Under the pieces are notes generated by a model. The model ran no database searches, had not been told where the DNA came from, and saw only the letters and a list, made by a program, of their open reading frames with translations. From a virus, in the IMG/VR virus record IMGVR_UViG_3300042566_000762, positions 1-64,000 of that record: a DNA stretch of 64,000 nt; one strand, 5' to 3'. Both the position numbers and the translations under genes were made by a program. Within the stretch, counting starts at the first letter, position 1. Each line of letters starts with the position of its first letter. Below are positions 437-30,366 of this stretch, piece after piece.

Positions 437-2710
437 TTATCCGTTAAAACTTGCACCTGTTGGTAAGATGTTGAAATCAATTTGAATAAATTCCGCTGTC
501 TTAGTTGGTTGTAAGTAGATAGCTCCTTTAAGAATGTTTCTATCTATTACATCAGGTGTGTTGTTTGACTCATCCATTATAACTCTGAATGCGTATAGAC
601 CTTGTCTACTTTGAATTGAGTTTAAATAAGGATTAACAATGTTTAAAAACTTAGTTCTTGTCTCTGCTGAGTTTTGTTCGAATACTAAGTATCTACTTGA
701 TGATGCAATATACTTTCTAACAGTTAATAACAATCTTCTTACGTTAATTCTATCCAATGCAGATGGTTTATCTTGTAAAGTCTTTTGACCGAATACTACG
801 ATACCTTGACCTGGGAATTGAACGATTGGATTTACTTTATTTTCGTATAATGTATCTTTTTCAGCTTGTGATAATCTATCCAATACTGCAACTGCTCCTG
901 TCAAACCACCTCTATTCAAACCTGCTGGTGCGAACCATTCTCCTGCTACGTTGTCGTTTGCTGCGAATACACCTGGTAATAATACTGATGGTGGAACTGT
1001 GATTAATTTGTTTGTATTGATGTCGATAGTCTTAATCCATGGGTAGTAAACTGCTGCGTAGTTAGAATCAACTGACTGAGCTTGTGTTACTGTTGCTGAT
1101 AATGATGTGTTTGCGTTACCTGCGTCTGCGATAAAGAATGCGTCACTTCTTTCTTCAACCATATCTAAAATAGATGTGAATACTGAAGAGTGGTCTGCTC
1201 TTGTAACACCAGGTGCTACAATCATATTGATATCATACTCATCTGTATTTGATAAAGCTGCAATCATTTTATTGTATGCTACTGAACCAGATGATGTTGG
1301 AGTTGATAAGTTAAAACCTTGAGTATTACCTGCAGTGATGTCAGAACCTTTATAGATTGGAGTTGTTGGGTTTAAACCATCAAAACCTTCTTGGAATGCT
1401 ACAATGAATTGTCTTTTTGCAACATCGGTTGAAACTGAACCAGTCAATTCTAAACTATCAGTTACATCCAAAGAATAAACTGCGTTAGAACCTGTTAATG
1501 CTCCTGTTGGGATTGGTTTGATATAAATTGCGTTATCCGTATTACCATCCAAATCAATACCACCATATTGTGTAGCAGTTGCAGTTACAAAACTTACTGC
1601 TGGAATTTGTGCTGATAAAGTTGCATTTGCTAAAACAGGTAATTTGTATGCAGCGTGTCCATAAGGAACTGCTTGTACCGGAATACCTTCAGGTGCAACA
1701 TAGTCTGCATCATTACTATTCCAAACTCTAATATATTTTGAATTAACTACCCAATCACCATGCTCTGTAATTTTACCTTCAGAGTTGATTGTTCTACTTC
1801 TATCACCAATTACTCTTGAGATATAGTTAGGAGAATTAGGGTCTAAATTCACATTGTTATATGTTTCTAAAATTGTTTTCTTTTTGTTTGTGTCAGAATA
1901 TCCTCTAACAACTACTGAGAATGTACCATAATCAGTTCCACTTACCGAACCAGCTGGTTTAATATTTGAGATACCGATTTTGATTTTGCTATTAGCTGCG
2001 TTACCTGCACCTAATGTAACAAATCTTAATACATTAAATCTTTGACCTGAAATCAATTGAGATTTGATTATTGGAGTCAAAGCTTCTTGTGCATCAAATG
2101 TGAATGGTTGGTCATCCAAAACATTAACTGATGCTGATGTGTTAGCTGTAAATGCTATACTATGATTTTGGAAAAATCCATATACATATGCACCTTTACT
2201 TCCCAATGGAGATGTACCGAATGTAGATTCGATATCATTTACATCTTCTGGGTCAAGTGATGTACTTCCTGTAAATGAAGTAGAACCTGTAATAAAGATA
2301 CTGAAATCACCATTACTTGCCGTTTGATATGTAGAACCACTCAATCCAGTTGTTAATACATTTTTATCAGTAGGGAAAAGAATACCAACCGATGCACTTA
2401 CTGCTCCAGATGTTGCAGTTAATAATAAAGGATTTTGTGCAGTATATCCACCAATACCTGCTACTCTTGCAATCGTTGCAGTTCCAGCTTCTCTTAAATA
2501 AGATTGAACTGCTAAAGGAGTATAATATGTGTCATCTACTACACCATACAATGTTTCAAATTCAGCTTGTGAATTTACAATTGTTGGTACTAATGGGCCT
2601 TCTTTGAAAGGGCCGATGAATGCTGCTCCTATTTCTCCAACCCCTTGTTGTAAGAATGAAAGGTCATTTTCTCTTGTGAAAACGCCTGGTGATACTAATT
2701 TTTCTGCCAT
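437..2710 (-). CDS. 18: contractile tail sheath protein gp18-like
   Basis: This 757-residue protein starts KLVSPGVFTRENDLSF and continues AAFIGPFKEGP, the N-terminal signature of T4-like tail sheath proteins. The C-terminal conserved sheath domain is clear: INVRRLLLTVRKYIASSSRY, a YAFRVIMDESNNTPDVIDRN segment and a final FIQIDFNILPTGASF strand. Sheath subunits assemble around the tube and contract to drive it through the host envelope. T4 gp18 has 659 residues, so this one is somewhat longer, with variable inserted domains roughly at residues 90-450. The upstream region is A/T-rich without a Shine-Dalgarno sequence. The tube gene follows directly. Confidence 0.95.
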   Translation of the reverse strand: MAEKLVSPGVFTRENDLSFLQQGVGEIGAAFIGPFKEGPLVPTIVNSQAEFETLYGVVDDTYYTPLAVQSYLREAGTATIARVAGIGGYTAQNPLLLTATSGAVSASVGILFPTDKNVLTTGLSGSTYQTASNGDFSIFITGSTSFTGSTSLDPEDVNDIESTFGTSPLGSKGAYVYGFFQNHSIAFTANTSASVNVLDDQPFTFDAQEALTPIIKSQLISGQRFNVLRFVTLGAGNAANSKIKIGISNIKPAGSVSGTDYGTFSVVVRGYSDTNKKKTILETYNNVNLDPNSPNYISRVIGDRSRTINSEGKITEHGDWVVNSKYIRVWNSNDADYVAPEGIPVQAVPYGHAAYKLPVLANATLSAQIPAVSFVTATATQYGGIDLDGNTDNAIYIKPIPTGALTGSNAVYSLDVTDSLELTGSVSTDVAKRQFIVAFQEGFDGLNPTTPIYKGSDITAGNTQGFNLSTPTSSGSVAYNKMIAALSNTDEYDINMIVAPGVTRADHSSVFTSILDMVEERSDAFFIADAGNANTSLSATVTQAQSVDSNYAAVYYPWIKTIDINTNKLITVPPSVLLPGVFAANDNVAGEWFAPAGLNRGGLTGAVAVLDRLSQAEKDTLYENKVNPIVQFPGQGIVVFGQKTLQDKPSALDRINVRRLLLTVRKYIASSSRYLVFEQNSAETRTKFLNIVNPYLNSIQSRQGLYAFRVIMDESNNTPDVIDRNILKGAIYLQPTKTAEFIQIDFNILPTGASFNG

Positions 2711-2875: not shown

Positions 2876-3538
2876 TTAATTTTCTTTAGTAATTTTTTTA
2901 AGTTGTTCGACTTCCACTTTCAAATCCATTACCTTACACAACATTTCCAAACGAGAATCTTCCAAATTTGAATACGCTTCCCAATCCTTTTCACTATATT
3001 GTGATTTAATCATCGATTTAAGCCACTTTTCTTCTTCACTAATTAAACTTTCCAATCGAATGGTATGTTCGGGTGATAGTAAACTTAGAGCGGATTCTAC
3101 ACTATCCCATCTTGCAGGTAAAGAAAAATTGTACATATTTGAAGTCCATTCTAATTCCCCTGCAGATGGGGTAAGTTCTGAAAGAGCACGTAGTTTGTGA
3201 AATCTAAAACGGGTTTTCTCCCATATATCATATAATTCTTTATATAAGTATGGATACCAGTGTGTACAAATACCTGATTTCATTTCAGTTATAATACTCA
3301 ATATATCTGTAAAATGGTCTAATGCCCATTCAGTTTTTATTGCCGAATGAAAATGTTCTCTAACGGGTCTCCATATAAAGGTAGTTCCACTATGTATATT
3401 TTTTTGTAAATCATTGGTATCAAATGAAAATGTGGATACGCGTTTCTCTACATCCAATTTCTCTAACCAACGAGTTCCACATTTATACGGAGCAATGATA
3501 TCTAATCCGGATTTGAATATATAACGCTTAAATCCCAT
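2876..3538 (-). CDS. sulfotransferase-like protein
   Basis: This 220-residue protein carries IAPYKCGTRWLE near residues 15-26, which fits the P-loop-like 5'-phosphosulfate-binding loop of PAPS-dependent sulfotransferases. It also has TFIWRPVREHFHSAIKTEW near residues 53-71, which fits the 3'-phosphate-binding strand-helix containing Arg and Ser. The C-terminal 40 residues look like a short coiled coil ending in Lys-rich sequence. It lies between the Hint-containing fibre and the sheath, so its target could be a virion or host surface glycan (inference). Similarity is motif-level only. A second, unrelated-looking sulfotransferase lies at 54660-55259. Confidence 0.55.
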   Translation of the reverse strand: MGFKRYIFKSGLDIIAPYKCGTRWLEKLDVEKRVSTFSFDTNDLQKNIHSGTTFIWRPVREHFHSAIKTEWALDHFTDILSIITEMKSGICTHWYPYLYKELYDIWEKTRFRFHKLRALSELTPSAGELEWTSNMYNFSLPARWDSVESALSLLSPEHTIRLESLISEEEKWLKSMIKSQYSEKDWEAYSNLEDSRLEMLCKVMDLKVEVEQLKKITKEN

Positions 3539-3566: not shown

Positions 3567-3597
3567 ATAATTTATATCAATGTTTGATATAAATTAT
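3567..3597. repeat. perfect AT-rich inverted repeat after a fibre gene
   Basis: Arms 3567-3580 and 3584-3597 are complementary over 14 bp around a 3-base loop, and the structure overlaps the stop codon of the gene at 3594-5369. It could form a hairpin in the transcript of either strand. No U-run follows on the coding strand, so it is a poor intrinsic terminator; an RNA-end stabiliser or processing site is possible. Confidence 0.5.
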
Positions 3598-5369
3598 TTT
3601 CCAAATCTACCTCTCATATTATTATAGATATTTGAAACTTCCGTTCCACTCAAAGCTCTTGTATAATATAATAATGCTGCCATTCTTATTCCTGGTGAAC
3701 CAGTTGTACTAATATTGGCGCTTGTTGCTGTTACCGATTGAAAATCACTTAAGTTCATTGCTACGGTAGCCACTAATGTACCATCTCTATAAACATTACC
3801 GGCCGGTTGCATTCCGGAAGCAGTAACTATTGAAAAAGCATACATATTCCAACTAGTACTAATATTAGAAAGTACGTCATTAGGTGCGTATCTAGATGGT
3901 GCACCAGGACTACGAACTTGTAATGTTGCACTATTTGCACTTGAATTGTACCACCTTACTGAAAAAGTTCTACCACTAGTGCTATCTGAAACACTAAAAA
4001 TATTTGAAAAAGCTGAAGCTTGTCCGTATTGCCACCAAACTACTGCCGCTCCTCCATTGTCAGTTAAATTAAAATTCGATATTCCAACTCCTGTTCCAGG
4101 TGCATTAACATCATTTTTCGCTGCAACATTTGCGGTTGAACCTGCAAATGTTAAGTGTTTAGGTGTAGTATTTGTAAATGTTGGATATGTTGAACCCTCA
4201 CCACTGAATTGTCCGGGTAAATATGGTTTAACATTAAATCCGGTAGCTCTTCCTGTTAAATCATGCCAAACCAATGAGTTTGCACCAGCGTATGATTGTG
4301 TTTTTTCAGCATCCAAATAACAGGCTAAGTTTGCAGATGGTATTGCTCCAACCGTATTACTACCTTTATTATGTGATACAAATCCATTCGATAAATATGT
4401 GTGTGCTACATCTACTGTAATTGTTGCAATTTCTAATGTTTCGTTTTTAGTTTCAATATTAACAACTTCGATTTCTTCCATTTCAAAAGTTGTCTTATTA
4501 TATTTAATCAATTTGTCACCAATAGTGATATCTTCTGCTCTTACAAATTGATAAGTAGAGGTTTCATTATCAAAAATAAATAATGGATGTGCTTTTGTAC
4601 ATTTTAATAAATCATCATTGATAGAAATATACGAATCAACAAATGAGTAATAAACATTAGTAATCTCTGCATCTACTACTTCTCCAGAAGAACCTGTTTG
4701 ATACCACCAATACCAATCTTCAGTATCGTTTTCTGGTAACCATTCAGGCATATCAGTTGGGACATATGTTTTAATCATATCACCAATATATAAATCTTCA
4801 GCCGATACTTCATTACCATCGGATAATAAAATTAAAGTGTTTATATCAACACAAAGTGAATCGGAATTTATTGAGTTATACGAATCAACATTATAAATTT
4901 GTTTTGAATAGACTCTGTTAAAACCATCTTGATTTGATGACCAACCACCATCATTATATGAAACTGCTAATAAGTATGGGTCGTTTCCACCATATACACC
5001 ATTTGAAATACTTGTAACTCCAATTTTAGTGGTTGCTGCCTTAATACCATCGTTGCCACTTGCATTTGTTCCAAATGTTATAGCTCCATTGTTAGGGCTA
5101 AGACTGAATGCATAGTTATTACTAACATCTTTAACTTTATTATTAAATAATGTACCAGCATCGGTAAATGAAAATACTACGTTTTCGGTGGTATTTTCTA
5201 CAATATATGTAAATGGTAATGTTGCAGATGCAGAATCAAATGAGAATCCACTAAATGATATGTTTGAACCTCCTCCGGCCAAACCACTAATTGAAACTGC
5301 CTGTGTAGTTCTGCTCGAACCACTCACAGCTCTATATAATTCACCTAATCTTTTGTTAAATAATGCCAT
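3594..5369 (-). CDS. tail fibre/adhesin with internal Hint (intein-like) domain and C-terminal LamG-like domain
   Basis: The 591-residue protein has three parts. Residues 1-172 are Ser/Thr/Gly-rich beta sequence. Residues 173-334 form a Hint domain, from Cys173 (CVDINTLILLSDG) through a TxxH block (CTKAHPLF, Thr258/His261) to a terminal VSHN at 331-334. Residues from about 345 form a concanavalin A/LamG-like domain ending RALSGTEVSNIYNNMRGRFG, the same ending seen in the fibres at 16313, 17700 and 29680. The residue after HN is Lys, not Cys/Ser/Thr, so standard splicing is unlikely; cleavage as in bacterial intein-like domains is plausible. It is transcribed after the glycosyltransferase gene. 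Host-receptor binding is inferred from the locus. Confidence 0.75.
   Translation of the reverse strand: MALFNKRLGELYRAVSGSSRTTQAVSISGLAGGGSNISFSGFSFDSASATLPFTYIVENTTENVVFSFTDAGTLFNNKVKDVSNNYAFSLSPNNGAITFGTNASGNDGIKAATTKIGVTSISNGVYGGNDPYLLAVSYNDGGWSSNQDGFNRVYSKQIYNVDSYNSINSDSLCVDINTLILLSDGNEVSAEDLYIGDMIKTYVPTDMPEWLPENDTEDWYWWYQTGSSGEVVDAEITNVYYSFVDSYISINDDLLKCTKAHPLFIFDNETSTYQFVRAEDITIGDKLIKYNKTTFEMEEIEVVNIETKNETLEIATITVDVAHTYLSNGFVSHNKGSNTVGAIPSANLACYLDAEKTQSYAGANSLVWHDLTGRATGFNVKPYLPGQFSGEGSTYPTFTNTTPKHLTFAGSTANVAAKNDVNAPGTGVGISNFNLTDNGGAAVVWWQYGQASAFSNIFSVSDSTSGRTFSVRWYNSSANSATLQVRSPGAPSRYAPNDVLSNISTSWNMYAFSIVTASGMQPAGNVYRDGTLVATVAMNLSDFQSVTATSANISTTGSPGIRMAALLYYTRALSGTEVSNIYNNMRGRFGK
4368..4853 (-). 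other. Hint/intein-like domain coding segment
   Basis: The segment encodes about 162 residues starting with Cys and ending in His-Asn, with a central TxxH motif and no room for a homing endonuclease. Flanking residues are SDSL upstream and KGSNTVG downstream. The Lys at +1 places it with bacterial intein-like (BIL, type A-like) domains rather than canonical inteins. Confidence 0.75.
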
Positions 5370-5380
5370 ATTTTTTGTTT

Positions 5381-6385
5381 TTAACTATTATAAATATCTA
5401 ATAAATCTTTTACCCATTTATTTCGATTTGTAAATATCATCATTTCTGATTTTAATTTTTCAAACCATTGTTTTTTTGTTTCGTAATCCGTATTTTTTAT
5501 TTCTTTTACTATATTTTCAAATTCCGTTTTACTTTCTGCTCTATATGGGTATTCCCATTCTTTCATCCAATCTTTACTCAATATGGGTAGTTTTCCATAA
5601 TCAACCGCTTGAAATATTGAATATCCAAATGGTTCATAATTAAAACAACTATGTGAAATTCCCCAATCTAAACGATAAAACCAATCTAATTTATTATATT
5701 CAAACATATATCGTTTAGCTCGTTTAAAATTCACCCCATATCCTTTCTCCCATATATTATTCAAAACTTTTAAAGTTGTAAATAAATAACATTCTATATT
5801 TTCTAAATACCAAACTCTCTTTCTTGTTTCGGTTCTTGATGCAAATCCTACTTTTACACTTTCACTTAATTCTAAATTATGTTCAAAATCATAATAATTG
5901 GGAATATCTATAAAATCATAATTAGCATGGGTTGGTGTTTTAAACAAACCAATCCAAATTCTTTTTTTAACTGTTTTGATTATAGTATTTTCCCATTCTG
6001 TATCTGCACCATAATGTTGAACTCCCGGTGAGTCAGAAAACATACCGGCTTTCATAGACATATCTATTGAATTATGCATGACATAACTCTCTATTCTATC
6101 TAAATTTCTTAGAATGGCTGAATTTGGGTGATAATGTCCGTGTAGTATGTGAATTCGCCGAGCATTATCTATAAGTTCATCGAACTTTTCATTATCATCT
6201 ACTTGCCAATAAATTTCAAGGGGGAAGTTATCCCCCTCAAAATCATCGGGTTTCTTTCTATGTATAAGTAGGATAGGTTTTACTTTTAAGTGAGGAACAA
6301 CATACTTTACGAAGTTATTCACCCAAACATCACTACCAGCACCTACTTTATTTCCAAAACCTGTTGTATAATATACATCATACAT
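5381..6385 (-). CDS. GT-B fold glycosyltransferase-like protein
   Basis: The 334-residue protein contains SHSCFNYEPFGYSIFQAVDY near residues 245-265, which resembles the EPFG..xxEA donor-binding motif of family-4-type glycosyltransferases, followed by GKLPILS. The N-terminus (YYTTGFGNKVGAGSDVWVNN) fits the start of a GT-B Rossmann domain, and VGFASRTETRK lies where the second domain usually begins. Such enzymes transfer sugars from nucleotide-sugar donors. The gene is packed between two fibre genes (2 bases from the upstream stop), so glycosylation of a fibre or of host surface glycans is a reasonable inference. Donor and acceptor are unknown. Confidence 0.6.
   Translation of the reverse strand: MYDVYYTTGFGNKVGAGSDVWVNNFVKYVVPHLKVKPILLIHRKKPDDFEGDNFPLEIYWQVDDNEKFDELIDNARRIHILHGHYHPNSAILRNLDRIESYVMHNSIDMSMKAGMFSDSPGVQHYGADTEWENTIIKTVKKRIWIGLFKTPTHANYDFIDIPNYYDFEHNLELSESVKVGFASRTETRKRVWYLENIECYLFTTLKVLNNIWEKGYGVNFKRAKRYMFEYNKLDWFYRLDWGISHSCFNYEPFGYSIFQAVDYGKLPILSKDWMKEWEYPYRAESKTEFENIVKEIKNTDYETKKQWFEKLKSEMMIFTNRNKWVKDLLDIYNS
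5389..5396. promoter_or_regulatory. TATAAATA octamer, candidate late-gene element
   Basis: It lies 20 bases upstream of the Hint-fibre ATG, inside the 3' end of the glycosyltransferase gene. Confidence 0.25.
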
Positions 6386-16312: not shown

Positions 16313-17089
16313 TTATAGTCCGAATCTACTTTTTTGTGCGTTGTAATTTTGTAAAACTTCTCCGGCACTTATTCCTCTACTATATACTCTAAATAAGCCC
16401 ATTCTACATGCACCATAATATCCATCATAGTTTCCTGCAATTCTTCCTATTGCTATACCATTACCTGCAGTAGATGTTGGATAATTTGGACCAGATGTTT
16501 GTCCTCTACCTGAAATCGAATTTGCTAATACACCATTTACATAACAACTGACTGTGCTTGGGCTAATTCCTGTTCCTGTTTTTGACCAAACAACATGGAC
16601 ATATGTATTCAACGGATAATCTACCTGACTATCTACACGAGATGAATCCCATAAATCCATATGTATTCTATTATCGGTAGGAGTCCATCCTTGTACGGCC
16701 AATCCTTGCGTACCCCCTTGTCCTAATCCCCAGTAAGCACCTGTTGTTCCAACTAAAGTAGCCGTTCTTTTTACAAAAAATTCAATTGTAAAATTTGGGT
16801 CACCATTTAGTATTGTTGAATTTATATTTGCTTGAACATATTGATTACTTCCATTAAAATTAAGTGAACCATTTCCATCCGATGAACTAAATGTTGGTGA
16901 ATTATATAATGTACCATGATTACCATTTCCACTTAAATCTGTCCAAGTTGTACCTGAACCTGCATATGAATTTTTATTAGCAGCATCTAAATGTAATACC
17001 AATCCATCATTTGATATTTGTTTTACAATTTCACCCTTTGGGCCGATTGATGTACTATATAATTTATTTCCCGTTAAATCTAATCCCAT
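16313..17089 (-). CDS. LamG/concanavalin A-like lectin-domain fibre protein
   Basis: I chose the ATG at 17087-17089 because MGLDLTGNKLYSTSIGPKGE aligns with the N-terminus of the paralogue at 17700 (MPIDLNGNIISSTS). A start at 17134 would overlap the upstream gene and add an unrelated leader. The 258-residue protein then has LVLHLDAANKNSYAGSGTTW, TDLSGNGNHGTL and the terminal YSRGISAGEVLQNYNAQKSR, the pattern of LamG-like (Laminin_G_3) jelly-roll domains. These commonly bind glycans. It is part of a run of short adhesin genes between two large fibres. Confidence 0.7.
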   Translation of the reverse strand: MGLDLTGNKLYSTSIGPKGEIVKQISNDGLVLHLDAANKNSYAGSGTTWTDLSGNGNHGTLYNSPTFSSSDGNGSLNFNGSNQYVQANINSTILNGDPNFTIEFFVKRTATLVGTTGAYWGLGQGGTQGLAVQGWTPTDNRIHMDLWDSSRVDSQVDYPLNTYVHVVWSKTGTGISPSTVSCYVNGVLANSISGRGQTSGPNYPTSTAGNGIAIGRIAGNYDGYYGACRMGLFRVYSRGISAGEVLQNYNAQKSRFGL

Positions 17090-17090
17090 A

Positions 17091-17687
17091 TTATAATATA
17101 TAAATTTCTGATATTGTACAATATGAACCACCACCGGTGGAATTACAAGACCTTCCGTGGCCTACACCTGCAATATTACTATTATTTCTTCTCATAAACA
17201 TATAAAAAGATTTAACACCACTATATCTCATAAAATTAGTTGATTCGTTATCACATGCACCGGTTTGTACATTAAATTGTGTATTTTCAAATGCATTTGA
17301 TGCATCCCAACGAAATATAATGTCACCTAATCCAGTATTATAAGATGCTAAGTTAGGTGATAGTCCACCATAACCACTTTGATTGAACGTCCAACAAGCG
17401 GCAGTTCCTTCGTTTGTAAATTTACAAAGTATTCTTGACCAAGGAATTGTATTTTTTATTGTAAAATATAAACCAGAATCGGCGCCACCACATCCACCTA
17501 AATTAAAATAATAAGATATTGAATACCCACCGGTACTATCATTACCTTGTGATGTGATTGTACAGTTTTGATTTACAACACTATCTATCATATCACTTGT
17601 AACTCTTTTAAAATTTTTTGGTAATATAACCCCATCTGGCGTTAACATTGATGACGATAAAGTAGAACCTCCTATATTAAATCCCAT
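17091..17687 (-). CDS. cysteine-rich fibre-associated protein
   Basis: The 198-residue protein starts MGFNIGGSTLSSSMLTPDGV, the same short adaptor style as its LamG neighbours. The body is Cys- and Gly-rich (LGGCGGADSGLYFTIK, FTNEGTAACWTFNQSGYGG, RSCNSTGGGSYCTISEIYIL) with about seven cysteines, unusual in this locus. It has no recognisable lectin or enzyme motif. The sequence looks like a compact beta domain, possibly disulfide-bonded outside the cell. It lies two bases upstream of the LamG gene. Receptor-binding function is inferred from position only. Confidence 0.6.
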   Translation of the reverse strand: MGFNIGGSTLSSSMLTPDGVILPKNFKRVTSDMIDSVVNQNCTITSQGNDSTGGYSISYYFNLGGCGGADSGLYFTIKNTIPWSRILCKFTNEGTAACWTFNQSGYGGLSPNLASYNTGLGDIIFRWDASNAFENTQFNVQTGACDNESTNFMRYSGVKSFYMFMRRNNSNIAGVGHGRSCNSTGGGSYCTISEIYIL

Positions 17688-17699
17688 AGTTATTTTATT

Positions 17700-18464
17700 T
17701 TATAATCCAAATCTAGATTTAGTTGCATAATAATTTGATAATACTTCCGCATTATTAAGTGCTTTATTATATATTCTTACAAATCCAATATCTCCGTTAT
17801 GCCATGCACTACTTGCTGTTGGTGGTACACCTGAACCTAAATATGAACCAATACTAATACCCGGTGTTGATGCCACCGCTCCAGTACTTTGTGATGACCT
17901 ACCTGTTAAAACTCCATTAAGATGCAATTTTGTATATGTTCCATCACATGTTGCACAAATGTGATACCAAGTACCAGTACTTACTACAATTCCTGATGAT
18001 ACATTACCAAATCCACTACCCAATTCAAATATCAAACGATTACTACTAGCACCCGCATATCCATATGCTAGTAATGCTAATCCACCATTTGTGCCAATAT
18101 CTCTACCCATTGACATTAAATATCTACCACCTGCTGCCACACCATTATCAGTAAATCTTGCCATTACTTCCATTGATAATTTTGTTGTAGGTGGATTATT
18201 TACTGATGATTTATAGATGTATTGATTTGAACCATTTAATGTAAAAATACCACTATTTGTAGAACTAAATGTTGGTGAATTAAAGGTTGTTAAATTATTT
18301 GCAGATGGACTTAAATCCGTCAAAGTAGTTCCACTACCTATATACGAATCCTTATCAGCTACATCTACATACATAATCAACCCATCGGTAATAATTGTAT
18401 TACTGAATGTACTTCCTGTAATTGAAGTTGATGATATTATATTTCCATTTAAGTCTATTGGCAT
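17700..18464 (-). CDS. LamG/concanavalin A-like lectin-domain fibre protein
   Basis: The 254-residue protein starts MPIDLNGNIISSTSITGSTF and contains LIMYVDVADKDSYIGSGTTL, TDLSPSANNLTTFNSPTFSS and the C-terminal YNKALNNAEVLSNYYATKSR ending in FGL. It is a paralogue of the proteins at 16313-17089 and 29680-30366 and of the C-terminal domain of the Hint fibre. Length fits a single jelly-roll domain plus a short adaptor. Glycan binding is known for the fold; the ligand here is unknown. Confidence 0.7.
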   Translation of the reverse strand: MPIDLNGNIISSTSITGSTFSNTIITDGLIMYVDVADKDSYIGSGTTLTDLSPSANNLTTFNSPTFSSTNSGIFTLNGSNQYIYKSSVNNPPTTKLSMEVMARFTDNGVAAGGRYLMSMGRDIGTNGGLALLAYGYAGASSNRLIFELGSGFGNVSSGIVVSTGTWYHICATCDGTYTKLHLNGVLTGRSSQSTGAVASTPGISIGSYLGSGVPPTASSAWHNGDIGFVRIYNKALNNAEVLSNYYATKSRFGL

Positions 18465-29679: not shown

Positions 29680-30366
29680 TTATAATCCGTAAGTCGGTTT
29701 TATTGCATTATAATTTTGTGTTATTTCCTCAATTGATAATTTTCTATTATACAAATAAAGATTTGCAACATGTCCAAAAGGTTGAGCAACAATATCATTA
29801 TTACCCACTCCCCAATGTGTGTTTCCACCCGAACCCTCATTGATTGTACTTCCCACTTGTGAACCATTTATGTAGAATGTTTGAGATGAATTATCCCCAA
29901 CTACCGTATATTGAACCCAAACACCAGCCGAAGATGAAACATCATATCCTGAACTTACGAATGTTGTTGCCCAATATCCTAATGTACTTGTTCCATTAGG
30001 AATAGTAATTGGTGTTATTTTACGAGTACCTTTTGTGTAAAGTAATGTTCTAAATCCTGAATTATTATTTATTAATCTTGCCCAAGTAATATAGGTATAT
30101 CCCGTTGTTGGTAAAGTTGGACCTGTTCCGTTTACATCAACTCTATTATTTCCGGTTGTGCAATCAAAACATTTTATTCCACTTAATGTAGTAAATGTAG
30201 CACCAATCAATGTGTGGTTATATGAATTAGTTAAATCATAAATGGTTGCCCCACTACCAGGATAACTTGTTGAATTATTTGCATCCAATTGAAGTAATAG
30301 CCCATTCGTAACCAACATATATGGATTTGGTGTAATTGTATATCCATTTTGAAATATTATTGGCAT
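29680..30366 (-). CDS. LamG/concanavalin A-like lectin-domain fibre protein
   Basis: The 228-residue protein contains GLLLQLDANNSTSYPGSGAT, YDLTNSYNHTLIGATF and the terminal YNRKLSIEEITQNYNAIKPT followed by YGL. It is the fourth LamG-like domain in the locus and the most divergent. Its N-terminus (MPIIFQNGYTITPNPYMLV) replaces the adaptor found in the 16313 and 17700 copies. It starts three bases after the 715-residue fibre. Glycan binding is an expectation from the fold. Confidence 0.7.
   Translation of the reverse strand: MPIIFQNGYTITPNPYMLVTNGLLLQLDANNSTSYPGSGATIYDLTNSYNHTLIGATFTTLSGIKCFDCTTGNNRVDVNGTGPTLPTTGYTYITWARLINNNSGFRTLLYTKGTRKITPITIPNGTSTLGYWATTFVSSGYDVSSSAGVWVQYTVVGDNSSQTFYINGSQVGSTINEGSGGNTHWGVGNNDIVAQPFGHVANLYLYNRKLSIEEITQNYNAIKPTYGL

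Follow-up and report, generated by a model that had tools for sequence, protein, structure and literature searches.

The window analysed here, a stretch of 64,000 nucleotides, carries on its (-) strand a gene for a protein of 591 residues that is composed of an N-terminal β domain, a Hint domain and a C-terminal jelly-roll domain (Table 1). The product is predicted to be a tail protein of a T4-like phage; the label 'tail fibre' used in the original prediction is drawn from the gene position only, and naming against PHROGs gave nothing above noise. The order of the 334-residue gene, the Hint gene and the tail sheath gene is fixed in the loci read, with an extra ORF of 220 residues (2876-3538, (-) strand) standing before the sheath gene in the window. 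This ORF is missing from that place in loci L002 and L003 and has no convincing family match. The 334-residue gene is nearly identical across the homologous loci and matches no Pfam or PHROG family; by eye, its product is GT-B glycosyltransferase-like and might modify the fibre. Three stand-alone Laminin_G_3 proteins, each similar in size to the presumed C-terminal product, are encoded in the fibre cluster (16313-17134, 17700-18464 and 29680-30366, (-) strand). By its terminase (53% identity), the phage lies near the immuto group of Flavobacterium phages. Phage records contain no near DNA match to the first 24 kb of the window, and a search of the possibly incomplete 106-kb record for a second Hint domain detected none at E ≤ 1.

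Table 1. Positions of the Hint gene, its parts and its neighbours in the window
Feature	Position	Strand	Remarks
Tail sheath gene	437..2710	(-)	Downstream neighbour of the Hint gene in every locus checked
591-residue ORF	3594..5369	(-)	N-terminal β domain, Hint domain and C-terminal jelly-roll domain
C-terminal fragment, residues 335-591	3597..4367	(-)	Concanavalin-like/LamG-type jelly roll at 341-590
Lys335 (+1), AAA	4365..4367	(-)	Invariant among all homologues
Hint domain, Cys173-Asn334, 162 residues	4368..4853	(-)	T258xxH261 and His333-Asn334; from codons, profiles and AF2 model
Asn334, AAT	4370-4368	(-)	
His333, CAT	4373-4371	(-)	
His261, CAT	4589-4587	(-)	
Thr258, ACA	4598-4596	(-)	
Family-specific insert, residues 203-233	4671..4763	(-)	Invariant Trp219-Tyr220-Trp221-Trp222; low model confidence
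Cys173, TGT	4853-4851	(-)	
Junction segment, residues 159-172 (YNVDSYNSINSDSL)	4854..4895	(-)	Best conserved stretch of the N-terminal flank; 8/14 columns invariant
N-terminal flank, residues 1-158	4896..5369	(-)	β-rich; no family match
334-residue conserved gene	5381..6385	(-)	Directly upstream of the Hint gene in every locus checked

Residues, fold and flanks of the Hint domain

The original prediction had described an intein-like domain of 162 residues with no endonuclease and with lysine in place of Cys/Ser/Thr after the terminal asparagine, and this description holds. The codons confirm Cys173, Thr258/His261, His333-Asn334 and Lys335 at +1, the predicted span from Cys173 to Asn334 and its length are exact, and no endonuclease family in the Pfam and NCBIfam profiles matched the 591-residue protein; the fold, the profiles and the residues that are invariant in 23 non-redundant homologues give good support to a Hint domain lacking a +1 nucleophile. 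The domain has the HINT fold from Cys1 to the C-terminal Asn, a cysteine at position 1 and the TxxH motif of block B, together with the features of an A-type bacterial intein-like (BIL) domain, namely a terminal His-Asn, no Cys/Ser/Thr at +1, no endonuclease and a compact length. Taken by itself, it scored 29.5 bits (E = 9.8e-7) against PT-HINT (PF07591), the only curated Pfam family whose cut-off (27.7) it passed, whereas the whole protein scored 26.1 bits, slightly below this cut-off. The whole protein passed the NCBIfam model intein_Cterm (16.9 bits, cut-off 15.6), and its best sequence match in the PDB was 2lwy, a bacterial intein-like domain (E = 1e-4).

An AlphaFold2 model of the Hint domain alone, computed with 62 relatives (pLDDT 83, pTM 0.80), gave Z scores of 14-19 to BIL, intein and Hedgehog structures, with model residues 7-178 covered. 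The score was 19.2 for BIL2 of Tetrahymena BUBL (6y75; r.m.s.d. of 1.9 Å over 141 residues, Foldseek 4e-10), 17.8 for the BIL domain of C. thermocellum (2lwy) and near 18 for mini-inteins and Hedgehog; as the inteins lie within 1-2 Z and are near-ties, the fold alone cannot separate a BIL domain from an intein. When a profile of the 62 related domains was compared with the PDB, BIL2 and the C. thermocellum BIL were at the top (1e-26 and 2e-26) and the best intein trailed them by ten orders of magnitude (inteins 3e-16 or weaker), a ranking that may be favoured by the choice of these domains for their absent +1 nucleophile. The insert with the invariant Trp-Tyr-Trp-Trp sequence could be a partner-binding or substrate-binding element. 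Similar Trp-containing inserts are seen in phage NCTB and in the Flavobacterium locus L180.

The full-length model had a low pLDDT of 62 and served only for the domain limits and the C-terminal fold, in which residues 341-590 resemble concanavalin-type jelly rolls with Z scores of 17-18. Neither flank matched a Pfam family, and no toxin family was found in the C-terminal part; the 'LamG' C-terminus of the original prediction is thus retained at the level of the fold in the model and lacks a Pfam match. Kinship of this part with toxins was considered and rejected, as the matches to clostridial neurotoxin receptor-binding domains, at 7-14% identity, reflect the common lectin-type jelly roll. Because the C-terminal part is a complete fold by itself, there is no divided domain that removal of the Hint domain would restore. 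An alignment spanning this part links it, with weak probability and from shallow profiles, to a stand-alone LamG protein encoded in the same genome, which makes a freed C-terminal part a plausible product.

Conservation of the domain within its family

Viral contigs were scanned for three DNA patterns: HTYxxNGxxxHNKG at the C-terminal end of the domain, and YxVDSYNxINxD in the N-terminal flank and P[FY]TYIVExTxEN in the N-terminal domain, both of which lie outside the Hint domain. The three patterns yielded 35 full-length homologues (23 after removal of redundancy, the furthest 42% identical), with the Hint domain at the identical position in all 35 and with Cys1, TxxH, HN and Lys at +1 invariant among the 23. 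All contigs with the flank motif carried the Hint domain (33/33), the 30 contigs with the N-domain motif were the same loci, and HNKG was also present in four loci found otherwise than through HNKG; no Hint-less homologue appeared in any of the three scans. No close homologue was found in named phages, where the only distant Hint matches were those of phage NCTB and of Corynebacterium phage terminase inteins. Because its residues are invariant, its place is the same and no copy without it was found, the Hint domain is, as judged from these sequences, a fixed and conserved part of the protein family and not a mobile intein.

The invariant columns of the 23 sequences make up 41% of the Hint domain (67/162), compared with 18% of the N-terminal part and 17% of the C-terminal part, and the median dN/dS is lowest (0.08) in the 14 residues before Cys173, with 0.33 in the Hint domain and 0.42-0.45 in the flanks. 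Conservation within the protein is thus strongest in the domain and at its junctions, which argues for constant processing, and the fibre variability after translation envisaged in the original prediction finds little direct support: the sole trace of variability is the divergence between the C-terminal parts of L002 and L003, which is genetic and not post-translational. The synonymous divergence of this pair, 0.20 in the C-terminal part compared with 0.045 in the Hint domain, suggests that C-terminal parts have been exchanged with a break near the conserved Hint block. Through faster divergence and probably this exchange, the C-terminal domain is the variable part, at the DNA level, of a phage-restricted protein in which the Hint domain itself is fixed within the family.

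Lysine after the terminal asparagine

Whether Lys at +1 is a quirk of this family was examined by scanning viral contigs and bacterial and archaeal genomes for HTYxxNGxxxHN with the +1 position left free. Among the matches listed, compact Cys1 domains without Cys/Ser/Thr at +1 had Lys at +1 or +2 in 34/40, 25/29 and 14/16 clusters (at 70, 50 and 40% identity, respectively), whereas domains with Cys/Ser/Thr at +1 had it in 1/108, 0/77 and 0/50; the frequency of Lys at +3 to +8 was at background level among the same matches. The motif [TS]xxH, which is absent from the search pattern, was present in 39/39 of the distant compact domains among the matches listed. The excess was weaker when the scan was repeated with HTF and HNF motifs: Lys occurred in 5/11 clusters at 70% identity (3/5 at 50% and 1/3 at 40%) compared with 1/151, the exceptions being J-type tail-tip proteins, whose +1 residue was Ala or Gly. 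In a motif-free profile sample from two phyla, all five non-nucleophile domains ending in [AS]NG/DGxxxHN had Lys at +1 or +2, and one J-type domain ending in NNIRVHN was followed by Gly.

A general rule of lysine in compact Hint domains was rejected: it is broken by J-type lineages, which have A/G/S at +1, and by the toxin-type junctions, which, counted by eye, are mostly A/D/G/Q/V. Given these exceptions, the lysine at +1 or +2 is a signature, though not an absolute one, of a single kind of compact Hint domain; no description of it was found in the open-access literature searched. Where a name could be given to the host proteins of these domains, they are tail proteins (J, phrog_31; tail fibre, phrog_5616; tail protein, phrog_2048; tape measure, phrog_167), and about half of the host proteins had no named PHROG. 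That the domains form a distinct clade in phage tail proteins, in which Lys at +1 or +2 would replace the nucleophile and the virion protein would be joined, or cross-linked to a partner, by a lysine amide (isopeptide) bond, seems quite unlikely.

Proposed autoprocessing and its alternatives

A-type BIL domains, which end in His-Asn and have no +1 nucleophile, mainly cleave (PMC7765530, PMC7664689), and published accounts disagree on whether they ligate. As described by Amitai 2003 and Dassa 2004, in so far as these are cited in PMC7765530, and in the structure 2lwy, they share with the phage domain Cys1, TxxH, His-Asn and the fold, as well as the absence of an endonuclease and of Cys/Ser/Thr at +1. 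The phage domain differs in residing in a virion-type protein, in being fixed in its family and in having an invariant Lys at +1 and a Trp-rich insert of ~30 residues. Assignment to the B-type BIL domains, which lack the intein C-terminal motif, was rejected on the presence of HN. BIL2 of BUBL (6y75, 6tmm), the best match by both profile and structure, is likewise without a C+1 nucleophile, but comes from a eukaryotic polyubiquitin-like locus, has Met at +1, is triggered by zinc and shares only ~20% identity; its flanks are ubiquitin-like. In the phage protein neither flank matched a Pfam family, and the model shows a jelly roll on the C-terminal side. The PT-HINT domains of polymorphic toxins show the same order, with Hint followed by a C-terminal part, but this part has a lectin-like (concanavalin-like jelly-roll) fold in the phage protein and matched no toxin family, and the junction is HNKG rather than A/D/G/Q/V, so this class was also rejected. 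In phage NCTB (LT598654), a 'putative phage tail protein, contains intein domain' likewise carries Hint in a fibre protein, but at the very C-terminus after collagen-like repeats, with Ala at +1 and no lectin-like C-terminal part. Class 1 mini-inteins share the HINT fold and the Cys1/His/Asn chemistry; a class 1 intein was rejected on the missing Cys/Ser/Thr at +1 and the lack of inteinless homologues in the viral-contig scans.

With its established fold, full catalytic set, residue invariance, absent Cys/Ser/Thr at +1 and no Hint-less homologue in three scans, the domain is probably an A-type BIL-like Hint domain that is active in autoprocessing and has a fixed place in a phage tail (virion) protein, a reading to which we assign a probability of roughly 0.6. 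This activity, which we infer, would begin with an N-S acyl shift between Leu172 and Cys173 aided by T258xxH261, and Asn334 would cyclize with the aid of His333, cutting the Asn334-Lys335 bond. The Leu172 thioester would then react with water or with an amine of Lys335, the α-amine or, less likely, the ε-amine. The new amino end of the C-terminal flank was reportedly proposed by Dassa et al. in 2004 to attack the N-side thioester. The 18.6 kDa Hint domain would thereby be removed from the 63.8 kDa chain, and the 18.1 kDa N-terminal part and the 27.0 kDa lectin-like C-terminal part would be either separate or joined (45.1 kDa), with 36.7 and 45.6 kDa as the masses of possible intermediates; this would probably be a constant step in the maturation of the virion protein. 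Cleavage at the C-terminal end is ranked as the most likely event and ligation as the second; release or re-attachment of the lectin-like domain, as the original prediction had it, is chemically plausible, with precedents in other BIL domains.

Cleavage alone, in which one or both ends would be cut and the lectin-like part freed or held non-covalently in the virion, has somewhat less than an even chance: it is the chief activity described for BIL domains (PMC7664689, PMC7765530), and the jelly roll could stand by itself like the products of the LamG genes nearby, although the conserved N-terminal junction suggests that the Cys173 end is also used. It is doubtful that the two halves become linked through an isopeptide bond, with the ε-amine of Lys335, and not its α-amine, as the group that reacts with the thioester at Cys173. 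This route would follow BIL2 of BUBL, the nearest solved fold, which is reported to join its N-terminal flank to a lysine in this way (PMC8616854), and it accords with the invariant lysine of the homologues and with the lysine at +1 or +2 in 14 of 16 non-nucleophile clusters compared with none of the 50 intein clusters among the matches listed. However, BIL2 offers no precedent for lysine at +1 itself, since the +1 residue of the solved construct is Met and the acceptor lysine lies elsewhere; Ala or Gly occupies +1 in some J-type relatives, toxin-type junctions mostly have other residues, and some domains stop two residues past HN, where ligation seems pointless. The lysine could merely favour cleavage, or be a relic of the clade.

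The Hint domain might also be a catalytically silent structural module, a rigid spacer or assembly domain that is never processed, with its catalytic residues kept for the fold or for metal binding instead. Conservation does reach well outside the active site (67/162 columns), but all residues for both half-reactions are invariant, even across domains at 20-30% identity, and such a module is about as improbable as the ε-amine route. Least credible by far is a selfish intein that has lost its endonuclease and is tolerated; it would account for the shared superfamily and chemistry and for a fold near to the mini-inteins, but no copy has a +1 nucleophile, no empty site occurs among the homologues, the host is not a conserved enzyme and the position is the same throughout.

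If the Hint domain is active, the phage tail protein would possess a built-in, energy-free maturation step, in which a receptor-binding-type domain is synthesized as part of a single chain and a self-removing domain then cuts it off or re-joins it. BIL domains were already known and Hint domains in phage tail proteins had been annotated earlier (phage NCTB, LT598654); as far as the open-access literature shows, what is new is the fixed presence, in a single family of T4-like tail proteins, of a BIL-type domain whose +1 lysine is invariant, together with the signature at +1 or +2 in related compact domains, and no experimental study of BIL or Hint domains in virion proteins was found there. The lysine at +1 or +2 offers a handle on whether an amine can stand in for the splicing nucleophile, and since Hint is also present in tail-tip proteins of the J type, in tail fibres and in proteins of the tape-measure type, a single biochemical test could account for a widespread and so far unexplained component of phage tails.

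The arrangement of Hint domains in other phage proteins varies. In the J-type central tail fibre proteins of L008, L013, L305, L291, L298, L307 and L320 the domain lies near the N-terminus after a Gly-rich stretch, and the +1 residue is K/A/S/G by lineage, whereas in a tape-measure-like protein (L168:4333-9693) it lies near the C-terminus with the junction HN-DK. Tandem Hint domains are found in the phage contigs L425, L514, L518 and L137, where the HN of one domain is followed within a few residues by another Cys1-type start. In L545, L546, L552 and L554, which belong to the phylum of the Flavobacterium locus L180, a terminal Hint-like domain has Cys1, no His-Asn and a stop at (V)xQK(N), and perhaps undergoes N-terminal cleavage only.
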